Assembly (NCBI GenBank): GCA_902766095.1
Contig: CACXCN010000077.1
Location: 1-36,835, forward strand
Reading direction: 5' to 3'
Length of the DNA stretch: 36,835 nucleotides
DNA from: an uncultured Selenomonas sp.
GTDB lineage: Bacteria; Bacillota; Negativicutes; Selenomonadales; Selenomonadaceae
A program made the position numbers and the translations under genes. Below the pieces are notes generated by a model. The model was not told the DNA's origin, ran no database searches, and saw only the letters and a list, made by a program, of their open reading frames with translations. Positions 9,607 to 32,966 of the stretch are shown in pieces (the stretch's first letter is position 1; every line of letters begins with the position of its first letter).

Positions 9607-10513
9607 GTTCAATATAGCAGGCCATCGCAAGATATGGTTTCTGATCTCAGCTCTCGTCATCATACCGGGCATCATTTGCATGTTCGTGAAGGGCTTCAAT
9701 TTCGGTATCGACTTCACCGGTGGTACCATCATCGACCTCAAATTCGCAGAGCCGGTGACCATTGTCGAGGTGCGCAGCAGTCTGGCTCGCTACGACCTCG
9801 ATGGCAGTACGATCCAGCTCTCGGGTGAGACATCGGGTGTGTCGTCCTCGAATGATGTCATGATCCGCACGGTCGACCTCGAGGAAGACAAGCGTAAAGA
9901 AGTCATGGCTTCACTCAAGGAGGATGTCGGTGACTACACCGTACTGCGTGAGGAGAAGGTCGGTGCCACCATCGGCGGCGAGCTCATAACTAATGCGGTC
10001 ATGGCGCTCGTCATATCCTGGGCCCTCATCATACTCTATGTAGCTTATCGCTTTGAGTGGCGTTTCGGCGTTGCTGCCGTGGCTGCCCTGATACACGATA
10101 TACTTGTAGTCCTGGCGGTATTCTCATTGACCCAGCGCCAGATCGATTCCTCGTTCATCGCGGCTCTGCTGACCATCGTCGGCTACTCGATCAACGATAC
10201 CATCGTCATATTCGACCGTATCCGCGAGAACATGAAGCTGCATTTCCGTCGCGGGGGAGATATTGACAGGCTCGTCAATACGTCGGTCTACCAGACGCTG
10301 ACCCGTTCGTTGTACACGGTGTTCACAGTCTTGTTCACGACGTTTGCACTTTACTTCTTCGGCGGCGAGACGACGAAGGATTTCGCGTTCGCTCTGCTGA
10401 TTGGTTTCGGCAGCGGCTGCTATTCGTCGATATTCATCGCGAGCCCGCTCTGGATCATCATGCGCAATCATACCGAGAAGAAACATCATACCAAGGTTGC
10501 GACGGCAGAATAA
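9599..10513 (+). CDS. secF: Protein translocase subunit SecF
   Basis: The 304-residue partner of SecD has a first membrane helix at about 14-33, then the family signature FNFGIDFTGGTIIDLKFAEP. A short periplasmic domain follows, then five helices with the VGYSINDTIVIFDRIRENMK motif typical of SecF helix 4. The ATG is inside the last codons of secD with AAGGAGG upstream, so translation is coupled. A strong terminator follows about 40 bases after the stop. Confidence 0.95.
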   Translation: MPKFNIAGHRKIWFLISALVIIPGIICMFVKGFNFGIDFTGGTIIDLKFAEPVTIVEVRSSLARYDLDGSTIQLSGETSGVSSSNDVMIRTVDLEEDKRKEVMASLKEDVGDYTVLREEKVGATIGGELITNAVMALVISWALIILYVAYRFEWRFGVAAVAALIHDILVVLAVFSLTQRQIDSSFIAALLTIVGYSINDTIVIFDRIRENMKLHFRRGGDIDRLVNTSVYQTLTRSLYTVFTVLFTTFALYFFGGETTKDFAFALLIGFGSGCYSSIFIASPLWIIMRNHTEKKHHTKVATAE

Positions 10514-10550
10514 AAATAGTACGGGCTAGGATATATTAATAGGATATATT

Positions 10551-10592
10551 AAAAGGCTGCGAAAAATGTCATGGCATTTTTCGCAGCCTTTT
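10551..10592 (+). terminator. Strong rho-independent terminator after secF
   Basis: A perfect 18-bp stem (10551-10568 with 10575-10592) has a 6-base loop. The stem begins AAAA and ends TTTT, so it could act on both strands. It ends the tgt-secF transcription unit. From here to 10830 I see no gene and no other structure. Confidence 0.9.
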
Positions 10593-10830
10593 CGCCTTTA
10601 TTTATATTTGATTTGTACTTAGGGCGATTGATTTTTGCGCGATACAAGAATGGAAAGCGAGCTTTGTGTGTTTGGAATGCATATAAATATGCTGTTGAGA
10701 AACTTTCCGCTCCGTCAGCTTCAGATAATATGTAATTAAGTAAATGCACGAATACTCGGATATCCTTTCTGCACAGCGGGTCGCATATGATCAGAGCATC
10801 TTCTGACTGTTTGAGTATGTACGTGTCTGA

Positions 10831-10859
10831 TGGACAAAAGTATTAGTTTTATTTAGAAT
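10831..10859 (+). promoter_or_regulatory. Putative promoter of the dcuC-peptidase pair
   Basis: TGGACA at 10831-10836 and TAGAAT at 10854-10859 are 17 bases apart. The -35 continues as TGGACAAAAG, almost identical to the -35 regions at 24989 and 33952. A further TATAAT at 10893-10898 lacks a good -35. Confidence 0.6.
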
Positions 10860-10947
10860 TGAATAGGTATGGCATAAACCTGATTTATCATATATAATAT
10901 ATAGAGTGATATTTATATTATTTATGATTATTTAGGGAGGTTCAAGA

Positions 10948-12219
10948 ATGGTTATCGCAGGTGTCATAGTAGTGGTGCTGGCTTTCGTAGCCATTGTCAA
11001 GAAGTATGAAGCCCGATTGGTGCTTTTCCTGGCAGGTGTCTTGATGTGTTTCATCGGTGGATTGCCGAATGATGTCATAAAGGCTCTGACCAAGGCTATG
11101 ACGAACAATTCACTCGTGCCGACGATCTGTACGGTCATGGGCTTCTCGTACGTCATGAAGCTCACGGAATGCGACAAGCACCTCGTGAACTCGATATCGG
11201 GGCTGCTGCGGCGGGGGCGTGTCGTGCTCGTGCCGATTGCTTTTTTCCTGACCTGGTGGATCAGTCTGGCCATTCCGTCAGCCTCAGGGTGCTCGGCGGC
11301 CGTCGGCTCGATCCTCATACCGACGCTGATTGCCGCGGGCGTGCATCCGGCTATGGCTGGTGCTGTCGTGCTCGCAGGTACCTGGGGCAGTGCAATCAGT
11401 CCGGGCAATGCTCACAACCCGTTCGTGGCGGATCTCGCGGGTACGGACATGATGACGGTCGTCCTGAATGAGACGCCGGCTTCGGTCATCGCCTCAGTGA
11501 CCTGCGTCATCGCCATGACGATCATCGCTGTCGTGTTCCATGAGGGTGCTGATGAGAACCGTCGCGTGGCTTATCTGGCCGAACAAGGGGAATCCGTCGT
11601 AGCAGCGAGGGAGTTCCATGTCAATCCGCTGCGGGCCATCGTACCACTTGTTCCGCTCGTACTGCTCGTTCTCGGCTCGAAGCAGGTCGCTGTGCTGCCG
11701 GAGGTCAGTGTGCCGGCCTCGATGATCATCGGCGTCGTGCTGGGCTTCCTCGTGACATTCCAGGATGCCCAGGAGATATGCCGCCGGTTCTTCCGCGGCA
11801 TGGGCGATGCCTATGCTGATGTCATCGGCCTCATCGTCTGCGCGACGATATTCACGACTGGTATGACGGCCATCGGACTGACGGGGGCGCTGACTGATCT
11901 CATGAAGAATTCGGATACGATGGCGGCCGCGGCCGGCACGTTCGGTCCGTTCTTCATCGCCGTGATATCGGGCTCGGGCGATGCGGCAGCGTTTGCATTC
12001 AATGGGGCAATCACGCCGTTCGCTGAGCAGTTCGGCATGAGCATCATGGATCTGGGCTCGCTGGCACAGATCGCTGGTGCCATGGGACGCTCGATGAGTC
12101 CGGTCGCTGGTGCGGCCATCATCTGTGCTGGTCTGGCACACGTCAATCCGATCGAGCTGGCGAAGCGCAATGCGGTACCCTGCCTCGTAGCAGCGATAAC
12201 GCTGATGATATTGCTCTGA
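10948..12219 (+). CDS. dcuC: DcuC-family anaerobic C4-dicarboxylate transporter
   Basis: The 423-residue inner-membrane protein has about 11-12 hydrophobic helices. The DcuC family pattern is clear in both halves: AIPSASGCSAAVGSILIPTL and AISPGNAHNPFVADL in the first. The second has FRGMGDAYADVIGLIVCATIF followed by the closing GRSMSPVAGAAIICAGLAHV and NPIELAKRNAVPCLV. DcuC proteins export succinate or exchange C4-dicarboxylates during fermentation or fumarate respiration. This copy is about 40 residues shorter than the E. coli protein. Actual substrate is inferred; another organic or amino acid is possible given the peptidase next to it. GGGAGG lies 9-10 bases before the ATG. Confidence 0.82.
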   Translation: MVIAGVIVVVLAFVAIVKKYEARLVLFLAGVLMCFIGGLPNDVIKALTKAMTNNSLVPTICTVMGFSYVMKLTECDKHLVNSISGLLRRGRVVLVPIAFFLTWWISLAIPSASGCSAAVGSILIPTLIAAGVHPAMAGAVVLAGTWGSAISPGNAHNPFVADLAGTDMMTVVLNETPASVIASVTCVIAMTIIAVVFHEGADENRRVAYLAEQGESVVAAREFHVNPLRAIVPLVPLVLLVLGSKQVAVLPEVSVPASMIIGVVLGFLVTFQDAQEICRRFFRGMGDAYADVIGLIVCATIFTTGMTAIGLTGALTDLMKNSDTMAAAAGTFGPFFIAVISGSGDAAAFAFNGAITPFAEQFGMSIMDLGSLAQIAGAMGRSMSPVAGAAIICAGLAHVNPIELAKRNAVPCLVAAITLMILL

Positions 12220-12241
12220 TTGTCATGGGAGGCTATGAATC

Positions 12242-13381
12242 ATGATGGATTGCGAGATCAATGAAAAGAGATTGCTCGATGATTTCTGTGCGCTCGTAGC
12301 GGTGCGCTGCTCGACGCATGATGAGCGCGAGATAGCAGATATACTGACGAGCCGTCTGCAGGCGCTCGGAGCTCAGGTGCATGAGGATGGCGCTGGTGCG
12401 GAGCTCGGTGGCAATGCCGGCAACCTCGTGGCGGATTTCCCGGGGACAGTGACGGGGGCGCCGACAATCATGCTGACGGCACATATGGACTGCGTCGAGC
12501 CCTGTGCAGGTATCCATCCGATCATCGAGAACGGCCTCATCCATACGGATGGTACGACGATTCTCGGTGGCGATGACAAGGCCGGTGTGGCGGCAATCCT
12601 CGAAGCTCTGCGTCAGATCAAGGAGCGTCAGCTGCCGCATGGTCCGCTGCAGGTGGTCTTCACGATATCGGAGGAGGGCGGTGTGCATGGCTCGCAGCAC
12701 CTCGACCAGAGTCTGCTTCATGTGGATTACGGCTATACCTTTGATACGCATGGCCACCCCGGCCTCATGAGCTATGCGGCACCGGGCAAGAATCAGATCA
12801 TCATCCATATCAAAGGCCGGGCGGCCCATGCCGGTCAGTGCCCCGAGAAAGGGTGCAATGCCATCATCGCAGCCGGCAAGCTGCTGGCGGATGCGCCGCA
12901 GGGGCGGATCGATGCGGAGACGACCTGTAATGCCGGCCTGATTACGGGCGGTTCGGCGACGAACGTGGTCGCGGACAGCTGCACATTGCGCTATGAGGCG
13001 CGCAGCCGCGATGCGGCCAAGCTCAAAAAGCTTACCCAGTCGATCGTCGACCATTTCGAGCAGGGAGCGGCGGCGACGGGCTGCACGGTGACGACCGAGG
13101 TCGCACCGGACTATGAGCCCTATCGCATCGCCCAGGATTCGCCGGCCATAAAGCTCGCAACACGTGCCTGCCAGGAGGTGGGGCTGACGGCTCGTCTGGA
13201 GGAATCCGGCGGCGGTTCAGATGCCAGTCACTTCAATGAGTACGGCGTACCGACCGTTGTCATGGGCGTGGGCATGACGAATGCCCATACGACGGAGGAA
13301 CAGCTGCTCGAGCAGGATCTCTATGATGCGGCTCGTCTGGCCCTGGGGCTGATCCTGACGGCCGGCAACGCTAAGAAATAA
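12242..13381 (+). CDS. M20-family metallopeptidase, peptidase T-like
   Basis: The 379-residue cytosolic hydrolase belongs to the dizinc M20/M28 group closest to the peptidase-T-like (YqjE) proteins. Metal and catalytic residues are visible in order: H81-x-D83 in TAHMDCVEP, the bridging Asp in LGGDDKAG (about 114), the catalytic Glu pair in ISEEGG (about 144), Asp in FDTHG (about 169) and the final His in TNAHTTEE (about 350). The dimerisation (lid) domain, starting near IHIKGRAAHAG, lies between. It likely cleaves small peptides. It follows dcuC by 22 bases with GGAGG at 12228-12232, so the two form an operon. The pairing suggests use of an imported peptide or amino-acid derivative, which is inference. 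Confidence 0.85.
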   Translation: MMDCEINEKRLLDDFCALVAVRCSTHDEREIADILTSRLQALGAQVHEDGAGAELGGNAGNLVADFPGTVTGAPTIMLTAHMDCVEPCAGIHPIIENGLIHTDGTTILGGDDKAGVAAILEALRQIKERQLPHGPLQVVFTISEEGGVHGSQHLDQSLLHVDYGYTFDTHGHPGLMSYAAPGKNQIIIHIKGRAAHAGQCPEKGCNAIIAAGKLLADAPQGRIDAETTCNAGLITGGSATNVVADSCTLRYEARSRDAAKLKKLTQSIVDHFEQGAAATGCTVTTEVAPDYEPYRIAQDSPAIKLATRACQEVGLTARLEESGGGSDASHFNEYGVPTVVMGVGMTNAHTTEEQLLEQDLYDAARLALGLILTAGNAKK

Positions 13382-23378: not shown

Positions 23379-24812
23379 TCAGTTGGTTTGGACTTCTGCT
23401 TGGGCTTGGGCCTCGGCCTCTTTCTGTTTCATGTTCTGGCGGTAGAGGTAGTAGACTGGGTCCTCCATCGCCATGACGGTGCGTAGGGGGACGCGTTGGA
23501 ATATGGGCAGATGGAGGCGGACGCGCACCCAGAAGAAAGCATAAACGGCCAGCAGCACCAGCAGGGCCAGTGACAGCAGGAATATCTCGATGCGCTCCGT
23601 CGGATCCGGCGAAATATTATACATCATATAGACCGTCATGATGATGGCGAATATCTGCAGGAACGGGTAGAGCGGAACTTTGTAGGTACGCGGTACGGTC
23701 GGCATGGTGTGGCGCAGGACCATGACATCGATGTGCGTGACGATGTAGGAGATCATCCAGAACAGCGAAGCCGCGAGAATCAGGAACTGTACGGCAGCAC
23801 CGCTCGAGAGACCTGTGGCCTCGATGATGATGGTGGCGATACCGAGCAGCCAGATGACGACGTAGGGAGCGCCGTGGCGGTTCTTGCGCTGGAACACGGC
23901 CGGCAGCAGACCGATTTTCGCCATACCGCAGCAGACTTCGGCCACGGAGCCGATGATGGAGTTCTGCGTGCTGATGGCCGCGAGCAGCGCGGCGAATATC
24001 ATCCAATAGCGACCAAAGGGCCCGAGCACGCTCACGGCATACAGGATGTGCGGCGAGTCGGAGGCACCGGCCTCGGCCCAGGGGACGTAGTTGCTGAAGC
24101 CGAGCACCATGAGCGACTGGATGACGCACATGATGAACAGGCTCAGGAACATGGCCCGCGGGATGTCGCGCTTTGGCTGGGACATGTCCTTGCCGAGCGG
24201 GATGATGAATTCGGAAGCGATGAAGAGCCAGAAAGCCGTAGTTGTCAGCGGCAGGATGTCTGAAAGGCTCGTCGACAGGACCGCCGGCTGGTCGACTTCC
24301 ACGCCAGTGCCGAGTCCGAGGGCGCCGATGAGCGAGAGACCGAGCAGGGAGATGACCATGAACGTGGCCAGGATGCACTGGACGAATGTCGAGAGCGTGA
24401 CTCCGCGCAGGTTGATGTACATGAGCACGATGGTGAGCGTCACGCTGTAGAAGGCAATCGGCAGCCCGTCGCCGAGGAACTCGGCCATGACATTGGCGAA
24501 CATGGCGCCTTCGGCCGGAGCCGCGAATATATTGCTGATGAAGTAGCCGCCGAGCATCGTGACGATCGTCGCAAAAGGACCGAGACCGACGAGCGTATAC
24601 TGGGCGAGGCCGCCGGTCAGGTTCGGCATGAGGGCATTGAGCTCGGCGTTCGATGCCGCTGCAAGCATATTCACGAAGCAGACGAGTATCATCGCGAATA
24701 TGAAGGTAGTACCCACGGCACTGGCGCCGCCAGCGAGCGGAATGAAGCAGCTCGTGGCAATGATCATGCCGACACCCGTCGAGACTGCGCCAAAGAGTCC
24801 GATCTTATTCAT
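23379..24812 (-). CDS. APC-superfamily amino-acid/amine permease
   Basis: The 477-residue inner-membrane protein has about 12 hydrophobic helices. Helix 1 carries the APC glycine motif (LFGAVSTGVGMIIATSCFIPLAGG). The conserved loop after helix 6 and 7 reads FIIPLGKDMSQPKRDIPRAM. The C-terminus is a hydrophilic Gln/Ala/Glu-rich tail. I use the ATG at 24812 because AAAGGAGT lies just before it; an upstream in-frame ATG at 24866 has no site. Substrate cannot be read from sequence. It is divergent from the LuxR regulator of a urea/guanidine carboxylase cluster, so guanidine, arginine-related compounds or another cationic nitrogen source are plausible substrates (inference). Confidence 0.85.
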   Translation of the reverse strand: MNKIGLFGAVSTGVGMIIATSCFIPLAGGASAVGTTFIFAMILVCFVNMLAAASNAELNALMPNLTGGLAQYTLVGLGPFATIVTMLGGYFISNIFAAPAEGAMFANVMAEFLGDGLPIAFYSVTLTIVLMYINLRGVTLSTFVQCILATFMVISLLGLSLIGALGLGTGVEVDQPAVLSTSLSDILPLTTTAFWLFIASEFIIPLGKDMSQPKRDIPRAMFLSLFIMCVIQSLMVLGFSNYVPWAEAGASDSPHILYAVSVLGPFGRYWMIFAALLAAISTQNSIIGSVAEVCCGMAKIGLLPAVFQRKNRHGAPYVVIWLLGIATIIIEATGLSSGAAVQFLILAASLFWMISYIVTHIDVMVLRHTMPTVPRTYKVPLYPFLQIFAIIMTVYMMYNISPDPTERIEIFLLSLALLVLLAVYAFFWVRVRLHLPIFQRVPLRTVMAMEDPVYYLYRQNMKQKEAEAQAQAEVQTN

Positions 24813-24852
24813 AGGAAAGACTCCTTTCGGTAGAAGGAAAAACGATACTGTC

Positions 24853-24881
24853 ATTATACCGTGCACGAGTGTCTATGACGA
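24853..24881 (-). promoter_or_regulatory. Putative promoter of the APC permease
   Basis: On the minus strand TCGTCA (complement of 24876-24881) and TATAAT (complement of 24853-24858) are 17 bases apart, about 40 bases upstream of the start. The stretch 24882-24985 between the two divergent promoters is AT-rich and is where operators would be expected; I see no clear dyad. Confidence 0.55.
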
Positions 24882-25020: not shown

Positions 25021-25120
25021 AGCAAGCTTCCACATGGGAAGCTGCTGAATACAGAACGTCGATGACAATGAAGTCAGTCACAGGGATACTTGTGGCTGGC
25101 TTTTTATTTTTTGCAGGAGG
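25021..25120 (+). promoter_or_regulatory. Structured leader with terminator directly before the LuxR-type gene
   Basis: A 10-bp hairpin with one bulged A (25021-25046: agc-a-agcttcc, loop acatg, ggaagct-gct) opens the leader. A second hairpin, gtcagtcacag (25073-25083) with ttgtggctggc (25090-25100), is followed at once by TTTTTATTTTTT (25101-25112), a good rho-independent terminator. The Shine-Dalgarno GCAGGAGG (25113-25120) abuts the T-run. Hairpin, linker, terminator and ribosome site in this order look like a transcription-attenuation leader. I do not recognise it as a known riboswitch class. Confidence 0.55.
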
Positions 25121-25127
25121 TATCACG

Positions 25128-25895
25128 ATGCTGAAAGAAATGGAATGGTTGACCATCAACAACATACTGCTCGAACTGTACCGCCAGAAAGAGCTCCCGG
25201 CTTTGTCGCAAAAACTCATGCGCGTGCTGCGCATGCTCATTCCGTATACGAAAGGCTACATGCTGCTGCTCGATCATCGCGGTCGTATAAAAGAAGATAA
25301 CAGCTGTTTCATCGGGATGCAGCCCAATGAAGTGGACGCCTATCTGCATAAATATTATTCGCAGGATTACCTCCAGTATCTTTATGAGATCAGCACAGAA
25401 ACCATCGTCTACCGCGATACAGATATCATGGACGATGAGCGTCGGGAGAAGACGGACTTTTTCCGTAAATTCCTGCTGCCCGCGGATATACCGTATGGCT
25501 GCGGTATCATCGTGCGGCACAAGGGGCGGGTATTTGCTGTATTCAATCTGTTCCGCAACAAAGAGCTCGGCGATTTTACGGATAAGGATATCGAGATCCT
25601 GAACATATTGAAGAACCATGTCGAGAATATGCTTGTCGCCCTCACGTCTCTCGACCAGCGTCAGCAATTCGTCGAGCAGTGCTGTGATGAAGCCCGCGAA
25701 TGCTATGGTCTAACCGAGCGTGAGAGCGAGGTGCTGCGCCTGCTCACCGAGGGCCTGTCGAACAGCGAGATCTGCGAGCGCATGACGGTCAGCATATCGA
25801 CCGTGAAGAAGCATATCTATCATCTGTTCGGCAAGATGCAGGTCAAGAGCCGTACCCAGCTCATCCATCAGCTCTATCTGATGCAGGGGGCCTGA
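25128..25895 (+). CDS. LuxR-family (LuxR_C_like HTH) transcriptional regulator
   Basis: The 255-residue protein has an N-terminal, about 180-residue domain reminiscent of a GAF sensor (VRHKGRVFAVFNLFRNKELGDFTDKDIEILNIL). The C-terminal LuxR/NarL helix-turn-helix (YGLTERESEVLRLLTEGLSN, then ICERMTVSISTVKKHIYHLFGKM) spans about 190-250. No receiver domain or autoinducer-binding signature is evident. The start at 25128 is fixed by GCAGGAGG 7 bases upstream. Because it is divergent from the permease and upstream of the carboxylase genes, it is the likely local regulator of this cluster; its ligand is unknown. It is followed by a terminator, so the catabolic genes probably have their own promoter. 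Confidence 0.85.
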   Translation: MLKEMEWLTINNILLELYRQKELPALSQKLMRVLRMLIPYTKGYMLLLDHRGRIKEDNSCFIGMQPNEVDAYLHKYYSQDYLQYLYEISTETIVYRDTDIMDDERREKTDFFRKFLLPADIPYGCGIIVRHKGRVFAVFNLFRNKELGDFTDKDIEILNILKNHVENMLVALTSLDQRQQFVEQCCDEARECYGLTERESEVLRLLTEGLSNSEICERMTVSISTVKKHIYHLFGKMQVKSRTQLIHQLYLMQGA

Positions 25896-25992: not shown

Positions 25993-26024
25993 ACGGTCCA
26001 TTGTGAGATGGGCCGTTTTTTTTT
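25993..26024 (+). terminator. Rho-independent terminator after the LuxR-type gene
   Basis: A 9-bp stem, acggtccat (25993-26001) with atgggccgt (26008-26016), has a 6-base loop and a run of nine T. The following 26025-26111 contains a small GC-rich dyad (caggg at 26061 with ccctg at 26077, flanked by gccg/cggc) but no clear promoter. Confidence 0.85.
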
Positions 26025-26111: not shown

Positions 26112-26831
26112 ATGCAGAAGATATTCACGAAAATTTTCCGTCCCGGTGAGAAGTGGTCCGGGAATATAGGCCGCCATAAATATTTGCATTTCAAGGCACT
26201 CGGCGATGATGCGAACCTGTCGCTGCTGCTCTACAACATGCTCGATACATCGGAGCGCTACAATATGCCGGATACGCTGAAGGCCCAGTACACGGCACAT
26301 CTGACGCAGGGCAACGTGCTCATGAGCGACAACGGCCGCGTGCTGGCCAGCATCACTCAGGACAGCCTCGGCTGGCACGATACGATCGCCGGGTACAGCA
26401 CGCGGGCCATGACGGATGAGAAATACGGCATCAAGACGTACCAGCAGGCCCGTAACGACTACTACCGCTGCGGCGAGGAGAATTTCAAGGTCGAGCTCAT
26501 GCGCAACAACATGGATAAGGGCGATCTCGTGCCATGCGTGAATCTGTTCTCCAAGGTTTATGTGAATCTCGACGGCAGCATGCACTATGACCCGGAACAT
26601 TGCAAAGAGGGGGCTACCGTGACGCTGCGCACCGAGATGGATATCATATTCATCGCCTCGAATACGCCGAATCCGCTGAATCCCTCGACCGAGTATCCGA
26701 CGAGCTCCATCATCATGGATGTCTATGATGCGCCGGCTCCCGACCTCATGGATGAGTGCGTGCAGCATCGTCAGGAGAACTATAGGGCTTTCGAGAATAC
26801 CTGGGACTATTACAATCTGCTGGGCCGCTGA
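26112..26831 (+). CDS. Urea-carboxylase-associated protein 1 (DUF1989), likely carboxyguanidine deiminase subunit
   Basis: The 239-residue protein belongs to the DUF1989/urea-carboxylase-associated family. Typical segments are FRPGEKWSGNIGRHKYLHF, QDSLGWHDTIAGYSTRAM and LVPCVNLFSKVYVNLDGSM. Pairs of DUF1989 proteins next to urea-carboxylase-like enzymes have been shown in other bacteria to form a heteromeric carboxyguanidine deiminase, releasing ammonia to give allophanate. Conserved His and Cys residues (GWHDT, VPCVN) could serve metal binding or catalysis; that role is inferred. GGGAGG precedes the ATG. The second DUF1989 gene follows after 43 bases. Confidence 0.85.
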   Translation: MQKIFTKIFRPGEKWSGNIGRHKYLHFKALGDDANLSLLLYNMLDTSERYNMPDTLKAQYTAHLTQGNVLMSDNGRVLASITQDSLGWHDTIAGYSTRAMTDEKYGIKTYQQARNDYYRCGEENFKVELMRNNMDKGDLVPCVNLFSKVYVNLDGSMHYDPEHCKEGATVTLRTEMDIIFIASNTPNPLNPSTEYPTSSIIMDVYDAPAPDLMDECVQHRQENYRAFENTWDYYNLLGR

Positions 26832-26874: not shown

Positions 26875-27522
26875 ATGTACGGACTCATAGAGAAAGAAAG
26901 CAACCTGAAAGAAAGCGATGCCGTGTACAGCGAGACGCTCGGAGCCGGACTCGGCTGGGTGCATCTCCTGAAGAAGGGCCAGAGCTTCCGCATCGTCGAT
27001 ATCGAGGGCAACCAGGCCGTCGATACGACGTTCTACGATGCGGAGGATACGCAGGACCACTACGGCGCGGTCGCCACCATCGTCGCGCAACAGAATATAT
27101 ACCTCACGACCGGCTCAATCTTGCGGGCGGAGTCGGGCAAGCCGATGCTCGAGATAACGGCTGATAAGACGGGCCGTCATGATACGCTCGGCGGTGCCTG
27201 CTCTTCCCAGAGCAATACGGTCCGCTATGCGCGGGAAAAGCGCTACATGCAGAGCTGCCGTGATGACTTCATGCTGGCGCTCGCGAATACGGATCTGCCG
27301 ATACGCAAGCGCGATCTGGCTCCGAATATCAACTTCTTCATGAATGTGCCGGTCACGCCGGAGGGCGGGCTGAAGTTCGACGATGGCGTATCGGCGCCGG
27401 GCAACTATGTCGAGATGAAGGCCCTGCGCGACGTGTACATACTCATCAGCAACTGCCCACAGCTCAACAATCCCTGCAATGCCTATAATCCTACGCCGGT
27501 CAAACTGCTGATCTGGGATTAA
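26875..27522 (+). CDS. Urea-carboxylase-associated protein 2 (DUF1989), likely second carboxyguanidine deiminase subunit
   Basis: The 215-residue partner of the preceding gene shares the DUF1989 fold, with KKGQSFRIVDIEGNQAVDTTFYDAED near the N-terminus. Central GRHDTLGGACSSQSN lines up with GWHDTIAGYST of the first protein. The C-terminal LAPNINFFMNVPVTPEGGLKF lines up with VPCVNLFSKVYVNLDGSM. The two are therefore distant paralogues with a shared H-D-T core. It is 41 bases upstream of the carboxylase, with GAGGAGG before its ATG. Function as for its partner, by family knowledge and context. Confidence 0.85.
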   Translation: MYGLIEKESNLKESDAVYSETLGAGLGWVHLLKKGQSFRIVDIEGNQAVDTTFYDAEDTQDHYGAVATIVAQQNIYLTTGSILRAESGKPMLEITADKTGRHDTLGGACSSQSNTVRYAREKRYMQSCRDDFMLALANTDLPIRKRDLAPNINFFMNVPVTPEGGLKFDDGVSAPGNYVEMKALRDVYILISNCPQLNNPCNAYNPTPVKLLIWD

Positions 27523-30500: not shown

Positions 30501-31169
30501 GCCGTCGGCATCGGCGGTGCCTACCTCTGCGTCTACGGCATGGAGGGGCCTGGCGGCTATCAGTTCGTCGGCCGGACCATCCAGATGTGGAATCCGCTCG
30601 AGACGACAGAGAATTTCCCTGAGGGCAAGCCCTGGTTGCTGAACTTCTTCGATCAGATAAAATTCTATCCCGTCAGTGCCGAGGAAATACTGCGCGACCG
30701 TAATGATTTCCTGCGCGGCAAGTTCCATATCGATATCGAGCCGTCGACGTTCCATCTTGGCGAGTACAAGAAATACCTCGCGAGCATCAAAGAGGAAAGT
30801 GCGAGATTCAAGGCTCATCAGGAAGCGGCGTTCGAGGCGGAGAAGCAGCGCTGGCACGAGCAGGGACTTGATACGTTCGTATCCGATGTACCGGAGGCGG
30901 CCACTCCGGAGGAGGTCGTGCTGCCCGAGGGCAGTGATCCGGTCTGTGCGACGGTGCCCGGCAGCGTATGGAAGGTGCTCGTCGCCGAAGGACAGCAGGT
31001 ACAGAAGGGCGATACGGTCGCCATACTCGAGAGCATGAAGATGGAGATACCGGTCCAGGCCGGAGAGGCCGGCTGCGTGACCGCGCTCTATATGAACCCC
31101 GGTGAGCAGGTGGAGGCAGGCCAGATACTGGCTGGCCTCGAGCAGAGTGAGGAGGCGAAGCGCGCATGA
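27564..31169 (+). CDS. Biotin-dependent urea/guanidine carboxylase
   Basis: The 1201-residue enzyme carries every step of carboxylation in one chain. The biotin carboxylase domain is about 1-445: LIANRGAIAVRIERTLRRMG, the ATP-grasp loop KSTAGGGGIGIRI near 156-168, and EVNTRLQVEHGITEEV near 287-302. The H-G in the last motif, rather than H-P, is typical of urea carboxylases. KipA-like (AHS2) and KipI-like (AHS1) domains follow, about 455-760 and 770-1010, and form the carboxyltransferase with LGLGDVYLGAPVAAPLDPRH. The C-terminal biotinyl domain has the attachment Lys1159 in ESMKMEI. Next to two DUF1989 genes, guanidine is the more likely substrate than urea. It overlaps the hydrolase gene by 4 bases. 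Confidence 0.93.
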   Translation: MFTKVLIANRGAIAVRIERTLRRMGVGSVAVYSQADQDSLHVRNADEAVCLGDGSVQDTYLAIDKIIAAARETGAQAVHPGYGFLSENTDFAAACAAEGITFIGPTAEQIKLFGLKHSARKLAAEAGVPLAPGTGLLSGVDEAAGAASRIGYPVMLKSTAGGGGIGIRICHNEAELRAAYDKVTYLARRNFGDDGVFLEKYVERARHVEVQIFGTEGEVTALGERDCSVQRRNQKVIEESPAPNLPDHVRQAMYEAAERLAAAASYRNAGTVEFLYDEATEEFYFLEVNTRLQVEHGITEEVMGVDLVEWMVREAAGELHDIKSLVPTKPLGHAIEVRVYAEDAQNDFRPGTGRVDDCVFADDTRVETWIRKNVVVTSLYDPMLAKLIVHGRDRAEALQKMQHTLAATKIYGVTTNIPYLAAIIARADYQAGHLYTKMLDGFTAEEHRLEVLDGGVQSTVQDYPGMIGYWTVGVPPCGAMDSYSFRLGNRLLGNEEGAAGIEMTMRGGRYRFRTCTSFCLTGADMEAELDGEPVPRYRVTQAVAGQVLSLGTAKTGMRAYLLVAGGIDVPQIMGSRSTFVDGKFGGHNGRALRTGDTLTLTEACHSSTCASMPLEYTPAITHDWTLGVLAGPQPTGEYLAPEYLQTLTSAEYTVNFNSARTGVRLNGPVPQWVREDGGEAGLHPSNIHDNAYAIGTLDLTGDQSILLGPDGPSLGGFVCPVTLAKAELWKMGQLHPGDKVHFQLLTLEQAAAMRQAMAKNIAFDYTRVELPHTPADVKADDAILAQGSADDMPYCVRLDGEENILIEFGAMELSIDSRFRAHILMQRLAEQNLPIIDMTPGIRSLQVHFDIDQTDARAMAQIVVAANEKLGDIEDITVPSRIIHLPLSWDDPQTQLAARRYQETTRPDAPWCPSNPEFIRRINGLESLDDVKNIVFSADYLVLGLGDVYLGAPVAAPLDPRHRLVTTKYNPARPWTPENAVGIGGAYLCVYGMEGPGGYQFVGRTIQMWNPLETTENFPEGKPWLLNFFDQIKFYPVSAEEILRDRNDFLRGKFHIDIEPSTFHLGEYKKYLASIKEESARFKAHQEAAFEAEKQRWHEQGLDTFVSDVPEAATPEEVVLPEGSDPVCATVPGSVWKVLVAEGQQVQKGDTVAILESMKMEIPVQAGEAGCVTALYMNPGEQVEAGQILAGLEQSEEAKRA

Positions 31170-32521
31170 CGAAGCGTGTACCCGATACATTGACGATAGA
31201 GGGCCTGCATGAGGCCTATGATGCCGGACTGACGCCGGCCGAGGTCATAGCAGCGATCAAGGAGCGCAGTGCCGGACTCACGGCAAAGCATATCTGGATC
31301 ACACCGCCCGATGAAATGCCGCTCGACTCCTATATCGCGGCCCTGCCGGAGCGCGACTATGAGCGCTATCCGCTCTGGGGCATACCGTTTGCCGTGAAGG
31401 ACAATATCGATGTCGCCGGGGTGCCGACGACGGCAGCCTGCCCGGCCTATGCCTACACGCCGGAGAAGAGTGCCACGGTCGTAGCGAAGCTCATGGCGAC
31501 AGGAGCCATCCCGGTCGGCAAGACGAATCTCGACCAGTTCGCGACTGGGCTCGTCGGGACGCGCAGTCCCTATGGCGAGGTAGAGAATGCCTACGTCCCG
31601 GAACGCATCAGCGGCGGCTCGAGCTCGGGCTCTGCAGTGAGCGTAGCGACGGGGCTGGCGGCTTTCGCCCTCGGTACGGATACGGCCGGCTCGGGGCGCG
31701 TGCCGGCGATGCTGCAGGCACTCGTGGGGTACAAGCCTCCGCTCGGGGCCTGGAGCACGCGCGGCGTCGTACCAGCCTGTGCGAGTCTCGACTGCGTGAC
31801 GGTATTCGCACATGACCTCGAGGAGGCAAAGGCCGTGGACCGTATGGCCCGCGGCTATGATGCGGATTGCTGCTGGTCCCGGCATATCGAGCACCAGGCT
31901 GACGCCTTGCCGGAGCGCATACTCATAGCGGACGAGGCGGAACTCACCTTCTTCGGCGTAGCACCCGATGATGCCCGGGCCAAATGGCGGGCGTCCGTAG
32001 CGCGGCTGAAGAAGCTGGGCGTGCCCGCTGAGATCATATCGATCAAAGACTTCATGGACGCGGCCAAGTTGCTCTATGATGGTGCATTCGTCGCGGAGCG
32101 CTGGGCCGATCTCGGTGATTTCGTCCGGTCGCATGGCGATGAGGTGTTCTCGGTCACCAAAGGCATATTGGAGACGGGCGGCAAGAGCGAGTATACGGCG
32201 GCCCGTCTGTTCCTGGATATGCACAAGCTACAGGAATACCGCCATCGGGCAGCCGCTGTCCTGCAGGGGGCAGTGCTTGTCATGCCGACGGCGGGCGGCA
32301 CGTTCACGCGCGATATGGTGCGTGACGATCCGGTGGCCACGAACAGCCAGATGGGGCTTTATACGAATCACTGCAATCTGCTCGACCTCGCGGCCATAGC
32401 AGTGCCCGAGGACAACCAGGGCAGGGAGAATCCTTTCGGCATCACCATATTCGCCCTGCACGAGGCAGAGCACCTCATATGCGGCACGGCTGCCGCCTTC
32501 CTGGCCGGCTCAGGCTGCTGA
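31166..32521 (+). CDS. atzF: Allophanate hydrolase, amidase-domain-only form
   Basis: The 451-residue amidase-signature enzyme hydrolyses allophanate toward ammonia and CO2. The Ser-cisSer-Lys triad is visible: K78 in FAVKDNID, the glycine/serine loop at 150-156 (GGSSSGS), and the nucleophile S176 in LGTDTAGSGRVPA. The last wording is characteristic of allophanate hydrolases rather than GatA. Known AtzF and DUR1,2 hydrolases are about 600 residues, with a C-terminal domain that processes the first product. Here the protein ends after the amidase domain, with a normal stop and no remnant downstream. The ATG overlaps the carboxylase stop (ATGA), so the two are translationally coupled. Confidence 0.9.
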   Translation: MTKRVPDTLTIEGLHEAYDAGLTPAEVIAAIKERSAGLTAKHIWITPPDEMPLDSYIAALPERDYERYPLWGIPFAVKDNIDVAGVPTTAACPAYAYTPEKSATVVAKLMATGAIPVGKTNLDQFATGLVGTRSPYGEVENAYVPERISGGSSSGSAVSVATGLAAFALGTDTAGSGRVPAMLQALVGYKPPLGAWSTRGVVPACASLDCVTVFAHDLEEAKAVDRMARGYDADCCWSRHIEHQADALPERILIADEAELTFFGVAPDDARAKWRASVARLKKLGVPAEIISIKDFMDAAKLLYDGAFVAERWADLGDFVRSHGDEVFSVTKGILETGGKSEYTAARLFLDMHKLQEYRHRAAAVLQGAVLVMPTAGGTFTRDMVRDDPVATNSQMGLYTNHCNLLDLAAIAVPEDNQGRENPFGITIFALHEAEHLICGTAAAFLAGSGC

Positions 32522-32564: not shown

Positions 32565-32966
32565 ATGGCAGCAAACAGCAAAGCTAGCGAGGATCAGCTG
32601 GTCCGGGTAGAGATCATCATCAATATGGATCGCATGACGCCGCTCATCAAGCGGCTCTATAAGGAAGGCCTGTACACAGGCGTGACGGTGTTCCAGGCCA
32701 TGGGCTGCGGTGTCGAGAAAGGATCGTTCGAGTTCGAATATGATGATCAGGGCAAGCCGGAGGAATTCCAGTTGCTCCCCAAGACCGTCGTCGTCATCGT
32801 CTGCAAGAAGTCTGAACTGGATAAGCTCATCGAAATCGTGAAGCTCGAGCTTTATTCGGGACATATCGGTGATGGCAAGATATTCGTATCCGATATCGAG
32901 AATGCCATCCGCGTCCGTACCGGTGAGGAAGGTCTGGCAGCCATGCTGCCTTCGCAGGTCGTATGA
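32565..32966 (+). CDS. P-II-family nitrogen regulatory-like protein with divergent T-loop
   Basis: The 133-residue protein has the P-II fold. The nucleotide-binding B-loop is well kept (SGHIGDGKIFVSDIENAI, 98-115), as is the C-loop (RVRTGEEG, 116-123), and LLPKTVVVIV matches the strand after the T-loop. The T-loop itself (about 50-70) differs from GlnB/GlnK: it is about three residues longer, very acidic, and lacks a Tyr at the uridylylation position. A 12-residue N-terminal extension precedes the first strand. It is the last gene of the cluster, 43 bases after atzF, and a terminator follows. It probably senses adenine nucleotides or a pathway metabolite and controls a nearby enzyme or transporter; the target is unknown. 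Confidence 0.85.
   Translation: MAANSKASEDQLVRVEIIINMDRMTPLIKRLYKEGLYTGVTVFQAMGCGVEKGSFEFEYDDQGKPEEFQLLPKTVVVIVCKKSELDKLIEIVKLELYSGHIGDGKIFVSDIENAIRVRTGEEGLAAMLPSQVV

Follow-up and report, generated by a model that had tools for sequence, protein, structure and literature searches.

In the GlnK–AmtB system, a P-II gene adjoins the gene of its nitrogen-source transporter and R47 of GlnK plugs the pore of the trimeric AmtB, and in SbtB–SbtA a dedicated P-II-like protein is combined with a secondary transporter, SbtA, that is likewise trimeric. P-II proteins belong to the most widely distributed nitrogen sensors, yet direct control by them is known for only a few transporters; the accessible part of a 2023 review names Amt, SbtA and two ABC importers, and no APC permease (PMC10710835). 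Our own literature search, the coverage of which mostly ended short of subscription journals, brought up no paper in which a P-II protein controls an APC permease. APC-superfamily permeases do occur beside guanidine genes, as in the locus described below: those of comammox Nitrospira are predicted guanidine importers, and PII or GlnB goes without mention in the part of that report available to us (PMC11410670).

Here, we analyzed a stretch of 36,835 nucleotides (hereafter the window, i.e., the whole of the DNA under study), which is contig C77 of a 2.34-Mb, 94-contig genome of an uncultured Selenomonas sp. The window carries a P-II gene that had been picked out in an earlier note, made from the sequence alone, as coding for a protein with a long, acidic T-loop and a possible dedicated partner, either the adjacent biotin-dependent carboxylase or a permease. 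As in GlnK–AmtB, most P-II genes of the clade to which it belongs adjoin the gene of a presumed nitrogen-source transporter, the fold is the same and the nucleotide-binding residues are intact; unlike in GlnK–AmtB, the proposed transporter is an APC/LeuT-fold permease instead of a trimeric Amt, and the Y46-R47-G48 tip of the T-loop is replaced. The likeness to SbtB–SbtA is one of description (a dedicated P-II-like protein with a secondary transporter), and here the trimeric SbtA differs from the APC permease of the clade.

Results

A P-II gene at the end of a putative guanidine-carboxylase operon

Between positions 23379 and 32966 of the window, a permease gene on the minus strand is followed by genes for a LuxR-type regulator, the two DUF1989 proteins UAAP1 and UAAP2, a carboxylase, an allophanate hydrolase and the P-II protein (Table 1). 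The P-II gene has the carboxylase operon on one side and, after it, an unrelated WecG-type glycosyltransferase gene on the other, with no link to amtB. Asp698 of the carboxylase aligns with Asn1330 of yeast urea amidolyase (5i8i), and we take this to be the column to which the rule separating guanidine from urea carboxylases applies. According to a review, Asp marks guanidine carboxylases and Asn urea carboxylases (PMC12186494). Because of Asp698 and the two DUF1989 proteins, we read the operon from its sequence as one for guanidine assimilation, i.e., as a guanidine-carboxylase operon. A guanidine riboswitch was looked for and rejected: an Rfam scan gave no match in the window and no riboswitch of this type in eight related carboxylase-type loci or in eight permease-only loci. 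The allophanate hydrolase of the window is short, at 451 aa (relatives, about 446-472 aa) versus about 590-655 aa in most other carboxylase loci; it is devoid of the C-terminal domain that is retained in most of the other carboxylase loci examined.

Table 1 Features of the window around the P-II gene, with the evidence for each assignment.
Feature	Position	Strand	Evidence
APC-family permease, proposed P-II partner	23379..24866	-	PF13520/PF00324; AdiC-/CAT-like fold; tail at residues 464-476
LuxR-type regulator, divergent from permease	25062..25895	+	PF00196; homologue in L078, L082, L088, L092, L039
Terminator-like hairpin followed by T8, between regulator and operon	25993..26016	+	Pattern scan alone
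DUF1989 protein UAAP1, carboxyguanidine deaminase type	26112..26831	+	TIGR03425, 267 bits, over cut-off
DUF1989 protein UAAP2, carboxyguanidine deaminase type	26875..27522	+	TIGR03424, 305 bits, over cut-off
Biotin-dependent urea/guanidine carboxylase, 1201 aa	27564..31169	+	TIGR02712, 1703 bits; Asp698
Allophanate hydrolase, 451 aa, without C-terminal domain	31166..32521	+	PRK08186, 527 bits; TIGR02713, positions 2-411 of 563
Divergent P-II protein, clade 'a', 133 aa, ATG start codon	32565..32966	+	PF00543, 60 bits; GlnK-like fold; clade support 100/99
T-loop of the P-II protein, E. coli positions 36-58 plus 3-residue insert; acidic, YRG tip gone	32706..32783	+	Alignment, lengths, charges

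The P-II protein groups in a discrete clade

The 133-aa protein is a true member of the P-II family PF00543, which it matched well above the cut-off of 25 bits (E = 3e-16); neither PDB nor Pfam nor NCBIfam gave a family narrower than P-II. Its AlphaFold model (pLDDT 79) has the ferredoxin-like P-II fold, and the best structural matches were GlnK1 and other PII proteins, with E. coli GlnK among those listed (best match, E 8.7e-10 and TM 0.68/0.77).

For the phylogeny, 108 P-II rows were extracted, of which 79 entered a quick tree after 29 had been left out (copies or near-copies of clade rows or of the GlnK-type 'b' rows described below, and near-identical ordinary P-IIs), and 75 entered a careful tree after removal of the wrong-strand rows fam_L012, fam_L021, fam_L029 and fam_L034. 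In the 75-row tree, the 36 rows from a permease or carboxylase context lay on one side of a branch with a support of 100/99, to the exclusion of all GlnB, GlnK and AmtB-fused GlnK sampled. The clade sits on a long stem, with a single origin in each of the 200 bootstrap trees; its inner branching order is weak because there are only ~113 alignable columns. On this phylogeny, the window protein is a member of a discrete clade and not an ordinary GlnB or GlnK, as the earlier note had anticipated. The source genome encodes three other P-IIs, two of them either fused to an ammonium transporter or encoded beside one and the third on C10; its AmtB–GlnK fusion and its amtB-linked GlnK both fell outside the clade. 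The fusion is a 604-aa frame with PF00909 and PF00543 (G000:C69; L040:10127-11938, minus strand), and comparably long P-II frames turn up again in the family.

All nucleotide-binding residues, K58, G87-D88-G89-K90, R101 and R103 (E. coli GlnB numbering), are present in the window protein, and G87-K90, R101 and R103 are kept in 36/36 clade rows of the alignment, which bears out the description of the B- and C-loops as preserved. Residue 39 is Glu in the window protein; across the clade it is Gln in 27/36 rows and Glu in 9/36. Gln39 is part of the 2-oxoglutarate site of P-II proteins, and because this residue is Glu in the window protein, 2-oxoglutarate binding is the uncertain part of its expected behavior as a homotrimer that binds ATP/ADP and 2-oxoglutarate.

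The T-loop of the window protein, GCGVEKGSFEFEYDDQGKPEEFQLLPK, is acidic as claimed, with a net charge of -5 at positions 42-54 and a clade mean of -3.6 (36 rows) versus -0.4 for 39 other P-IIs. The other two T-loop traits put forward with it held for the window copy but do not define the clade. Between positions 37 and 58, 30/36 clade rows have the canonical 22 residues, 4/36 have 23 and 2/36 have 25, the last being the window and L088 alone, so the loop is longer in the window protein but not in the family. Position 51 is Glu, so there is no uridylylatable Tyr51, but this is nothing special: Tyr51 is scarce in both sets (2/36 clade rows, 4/39 other P-IIs), its loss is common among Firmicute P-IIs, and it does not discriminate because 35/39 of the other P-IIs in the set are also without it. 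T-loop length and the missing Tyr were both dropped as family-defining traits. Judging from the alignment, the T-loop trait that distinguishes the clade is the lost GlnK tip Tyr46-Arg47-Gly48, replaced mostly by acidic residues: R47 is found in 2/36 clade rows versus 35/39 other P-IIs, and G48 in 1/36 versus 37/39. E44 is invariant in the 36 clade rows, and at position 62, which is E or D in 36/39 other P-IIs, the clade has lost the Glu, with Met in 21/36 rows.

Most clade P-II genes adjoin an APC permease gene

One scan of named genomes with a six-sequence P-II profile gave 80 loci, from Lachnospiraceae, Oscillospiraceae, Treponema, Sharpea, Pseudoramibacter and one Olsenella bin. A homologue of the window permease was present in 33/80 loci, in 32 of them directly downstream of the P-II gene on the same strand; in L082, the permease lies upstream on the opposite strand. 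It was absent from 46/80, several of which are on contigs that end near the P-II gene (e.g., L112, L119 and L134). No carboxylase was found in the fetched flank of 30 of the 32 P-II–permease pairs, a count that refers to this flank and includes some short contigs. A carboxylase operon accompanied the P-II gene in 4/80 loci (L081, L082, L088 and L092), where L081 was taken as G275:C19 and L082 as G070:C44 on account of their matching layout.

The linkage to the permease extends across metabolic contexts. Most of the 30 carboxylase-free pairs are set in a conserved cluster around a cyclodeaminase-like protein, "tyramine oxidase subunit B" in NCBIfam (597 bits, cut-off 362), which also holds sarcosine-oxidase-like alpha and beta pieces, a BFD-type iron-sulphur protein and an AraC regulator. 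In L093, L098, L103 and L109, the pair is preceded by a putrescine/ornithine-type class-III aminotransferase. The tyramine-oxidase-annotated cluster around the P-II–permease pair is itself widespread in gut anaerobes (L083-L122, e.g., L086:3998-11446).

The reverse search, by permease (at least 47% identity), covered 200 genomes sampled from the family to which the L102 genome (Anaerostipes sp. 992a) belongs. It yielded 18 permeases in 15/200 genomes. For 17 of the 18, counting the query genome's own, the gene just upstream on that strand codes for a P-II, the gap between the P-II and permease matches being 34-209 bases; in the exception (G470:C71), a cyclodeaminase gene stands upstream in place of the P-II. 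When a 398-genome phylum sample was searched, permease identity fell after the query to 33-34% and then to 28% or less, and none of the distant permeases with a readable tail (27-28 of 29 fetched loci) had a P-II within about 1.5 kb or the tail motif described below, for which the query's own locus was the single positive. Within the host's class, a permease at 68-74% identity was found in 8/8 carboxylase genomes and in 0/5 carboxylase-free sisters. Distances between P-IIs and between permeases were correlated (r = 0.72, 34 pairs, 0/5000 permutations as high), for which shared ancestry alone could suffice. Selenomonadaceae have a different arrangement, with the clade P-II coming after the carboxylase and hydrolase genes and not beside the permease: 7.7 kb lie between the two genes in the window, and the permease of G275 is about 15 kb from the clade P-II and adjoins another, GlnK-type P-II.

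The AlphaFold model of the window permease (pLDDT 87) matched AdiC, CAT and LAT structures, and to our knowledge this type of fold is not trimeric in the solved cases. After the last membrane helix, the permease has a tail with a VMAME motif, VMAMEDPVYYLYR (residues 464-476 in the window), which was recognizable with a relaxed pattern in 45/45 permeases of the set and is specific to this subfamily. The tail lies outside the PF13520 match (24-417), in a part where the model is unsure (block means of 59-73), and should be cytosolic given the topology of the permease family. Strong conservation in spite of flexibility suggests that it is a binding site, for which P-II is the obvious candidate, or the motif may serve folding or assembly instead. 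Because the tail follows the permease phylogeny, its co-occurrence with P-II counts as one event and not as many.

Carboxylase loci within and beyond the class

A TIGR02712 search of 380 genomes of the host's class found six carboxylases over the curated cut-off and two more that are split across contigs (G081 and G094). A P-II gene comes after the carboxylase and hydrolase genes in 7/7 testable loci of the class (the window, G024, G048, G070, G073, G081 and G275), G094 being left out of the clade 'a' count as its contig ends inside the carboxylase. The P-IIs after these loci are 48-57% identical to the window P-II, and in G275 there is a 4-nt overlap between the P-II frame and the hydrolase stop. 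No such P-II was found in five sisters lacking the carboxylase (G063, G088, G013, G041 and G058). Since all testable loci end in a clade P-II and the carboxylase-free sisters have none, the co-occurrence with DUF1989-carboxylase loci that the earlier note had put up for checking was confirmed within the class.

Outside the class, we inspected six plasmid loci, chosen among 25 listed of 268 records, from Paenibacillus, Niallia and Pseudomonadota (Novosphingobium, Burkholderia, Azospirillum and Rhizobium). Their operons have the two DUF1989 proteins, the carboxylase and the allophanate hydrolase in the same order as the window; unlike the window, they have ABC-importer genes (5/6) or, in Niallia, an APC permease of another subfamily without the tail, and no P-II in the 23 kb fetched (0/6). 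Two carboxylase genomes were found in a 398-genome sample: G912, which has no P-II gene anywhere, and G952, in which a tandem P-II pair is followed by ABC-importer genes and then by the carboxylase operon. A clade 'a' P-II was thus found at none of eight carboxylase loci without the clade-linked permease (the six plasmid loci, G912 and G952). The tandem pair of G952 (L211:4835-5659; G952:C1, about 769834-770658) adjoins genes of a substrate-binding-protein ABC importer; we take its T-loops to resemble those of the NifI1/NifI2 pair, and it may be another case in which P-II and a guanidine importer were paired independently.

P-II proteins bind biotin carrier proteins and thereby act on acetyl-CoA carboxylase, and the window P-II might similarly control either the allophanate hydrolase or, by way of its biotinyl domain, the guanidine carboxylase, and so fit an ATP-costly breakdown to nitrogen need. 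Control of the enzymes would agree with the place of the P-II as last gene of the carboxylase-hydrolase run in the class, with its overlap with the hydrolase in G275, with the separate P-II that the permease has in five genomes and with the tree, where the eight carboxylase-context rows form one subclade (93/82). That subclade, however, is nested within the 36-row clade, which is tied to the permease where the carboxylase is absent; the clade P-II is missing from the carboxylase loci that are without the permease; and L088 and L092 have the order carboxylase, hydrolase, P-II, permease. We consider a target among the enzymes unlikely. With 30/32 P-II–permease pairs carboxylase-free and no clade P-II at the eight loci above, the carboxylase gave way as partner to the permease, which had been named as the alternative. 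The carboxylase as constant partner was also tried as the main reading and rejected, as the fetched flank of most clade members is free of a carboxylase.

A second, GlnK-type P-II

In G024, G073, G081, G094 and G275, five genomes of Selenomonadaceae type, the permease gene is immediately followed by that of a GlnK-type P-II ('b'). In G275 it overlaps the permease by 4 nt, and the L078 frames 10392-10895 and 10892-12415 are a GlnK-type P-II with the permease. In G048 and G070, 'b' is in tandem after the clade member, so that 7/8 carboxylase genomes of the class have a 'b' copy linked either to the permease or to 'a'. Four 'b' rows grouped weakly with AmtB-fused GlnK domains in the quick tree (81). 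The placement of 'b' speaks in general for a permease controlled by P-II, and the 'b' copies are at the same time the best argument for a clade member that acts on the carboxylase or for a two-P-II system. In such a system, 'a' and 'b' would cooperate, either as a hetero-oligomer or with one acting on the permease and the other on the enzymes, as the linkage in 7/8 genomes, the tandem genes of G070 and G048 and the P-II pair upstream of the ABC-importer genes at the G952 carboxylase locus could be read. The window locus of the source genome, however, has no 'b' copy, and the carboxylase-free pairs have one P-II each, and we regard cooperation between two P-IIs as very unlikely. The least likely explanation is that a fairly ordinary P-II with general targets was captured by nitrogen-scavenging operons, its neighbors reflecting co-expression only, which would suit the fully kept nucleotide residues and the several targets on which P-II proteins commonly act, but not a single clade on a long stem that has a T-loop signature of its own and a near-obligate pairing with one permease type.

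Discussion

We propose, with a probability of roughly 0.65, that the window protein represents a discrete P-II clade dedicated to an APC (LeuT-fold) permease subfamily that imports nitrogen-rich amines, here guanidine. The existence of a dedicated partner is likely from the genomic comparisons, and the permease appears to fit this role better than the carboxylase: because clade genes nearly always adjoin the permease, it is the importer, and not the carboxylase, that is most likely switched by P-II. Gene linkage as such shows a shared pathway and not contact, and we infer the contact, the direction of control, the effectors and the substrate, guanidine or other amines, from gene context. In a nitrogen-rich cell, with low 2-oxoglutarate and high ADP, the acidic T-loops of the P-II trimer would dock on the permease, at its cytosolic face or at the VMAME tail, and stop uptake, and ATP together with 2-oxoglutarate would release the P-II again. 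The mode of action would resemble that of GlnK on AmtB, though with a target that is no trimer. The benefit would be that no guanidine is imported, and no unneeded ammonia released, when nitrogen is plentiful.

A wider proposal is that this P-II branch gates APC/LeuT-fold amine permeases, which are non-trimeric secondary transporters, through contact of the acidic T-loop with the VMAME tail, outside the Amt and SbtA types of target, with guanidine and probably tyramine and polyamines as substrates, and that a GlnK-type P-II was recruited independently in Selenomonadaceae; to us, the odds on it are about even. With the clade signature and the VMAME tail at hand, the idea can be tested right away. 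If true, P-II control would extend to a very large transporter superfamily, the LeuT-fold permeases, which would be a new kind of P-II target and would challenge the need for a trimeric transporter. It would also provide a handle on how gut anaerobes ration the uptake of guanidine and biogenic amines.
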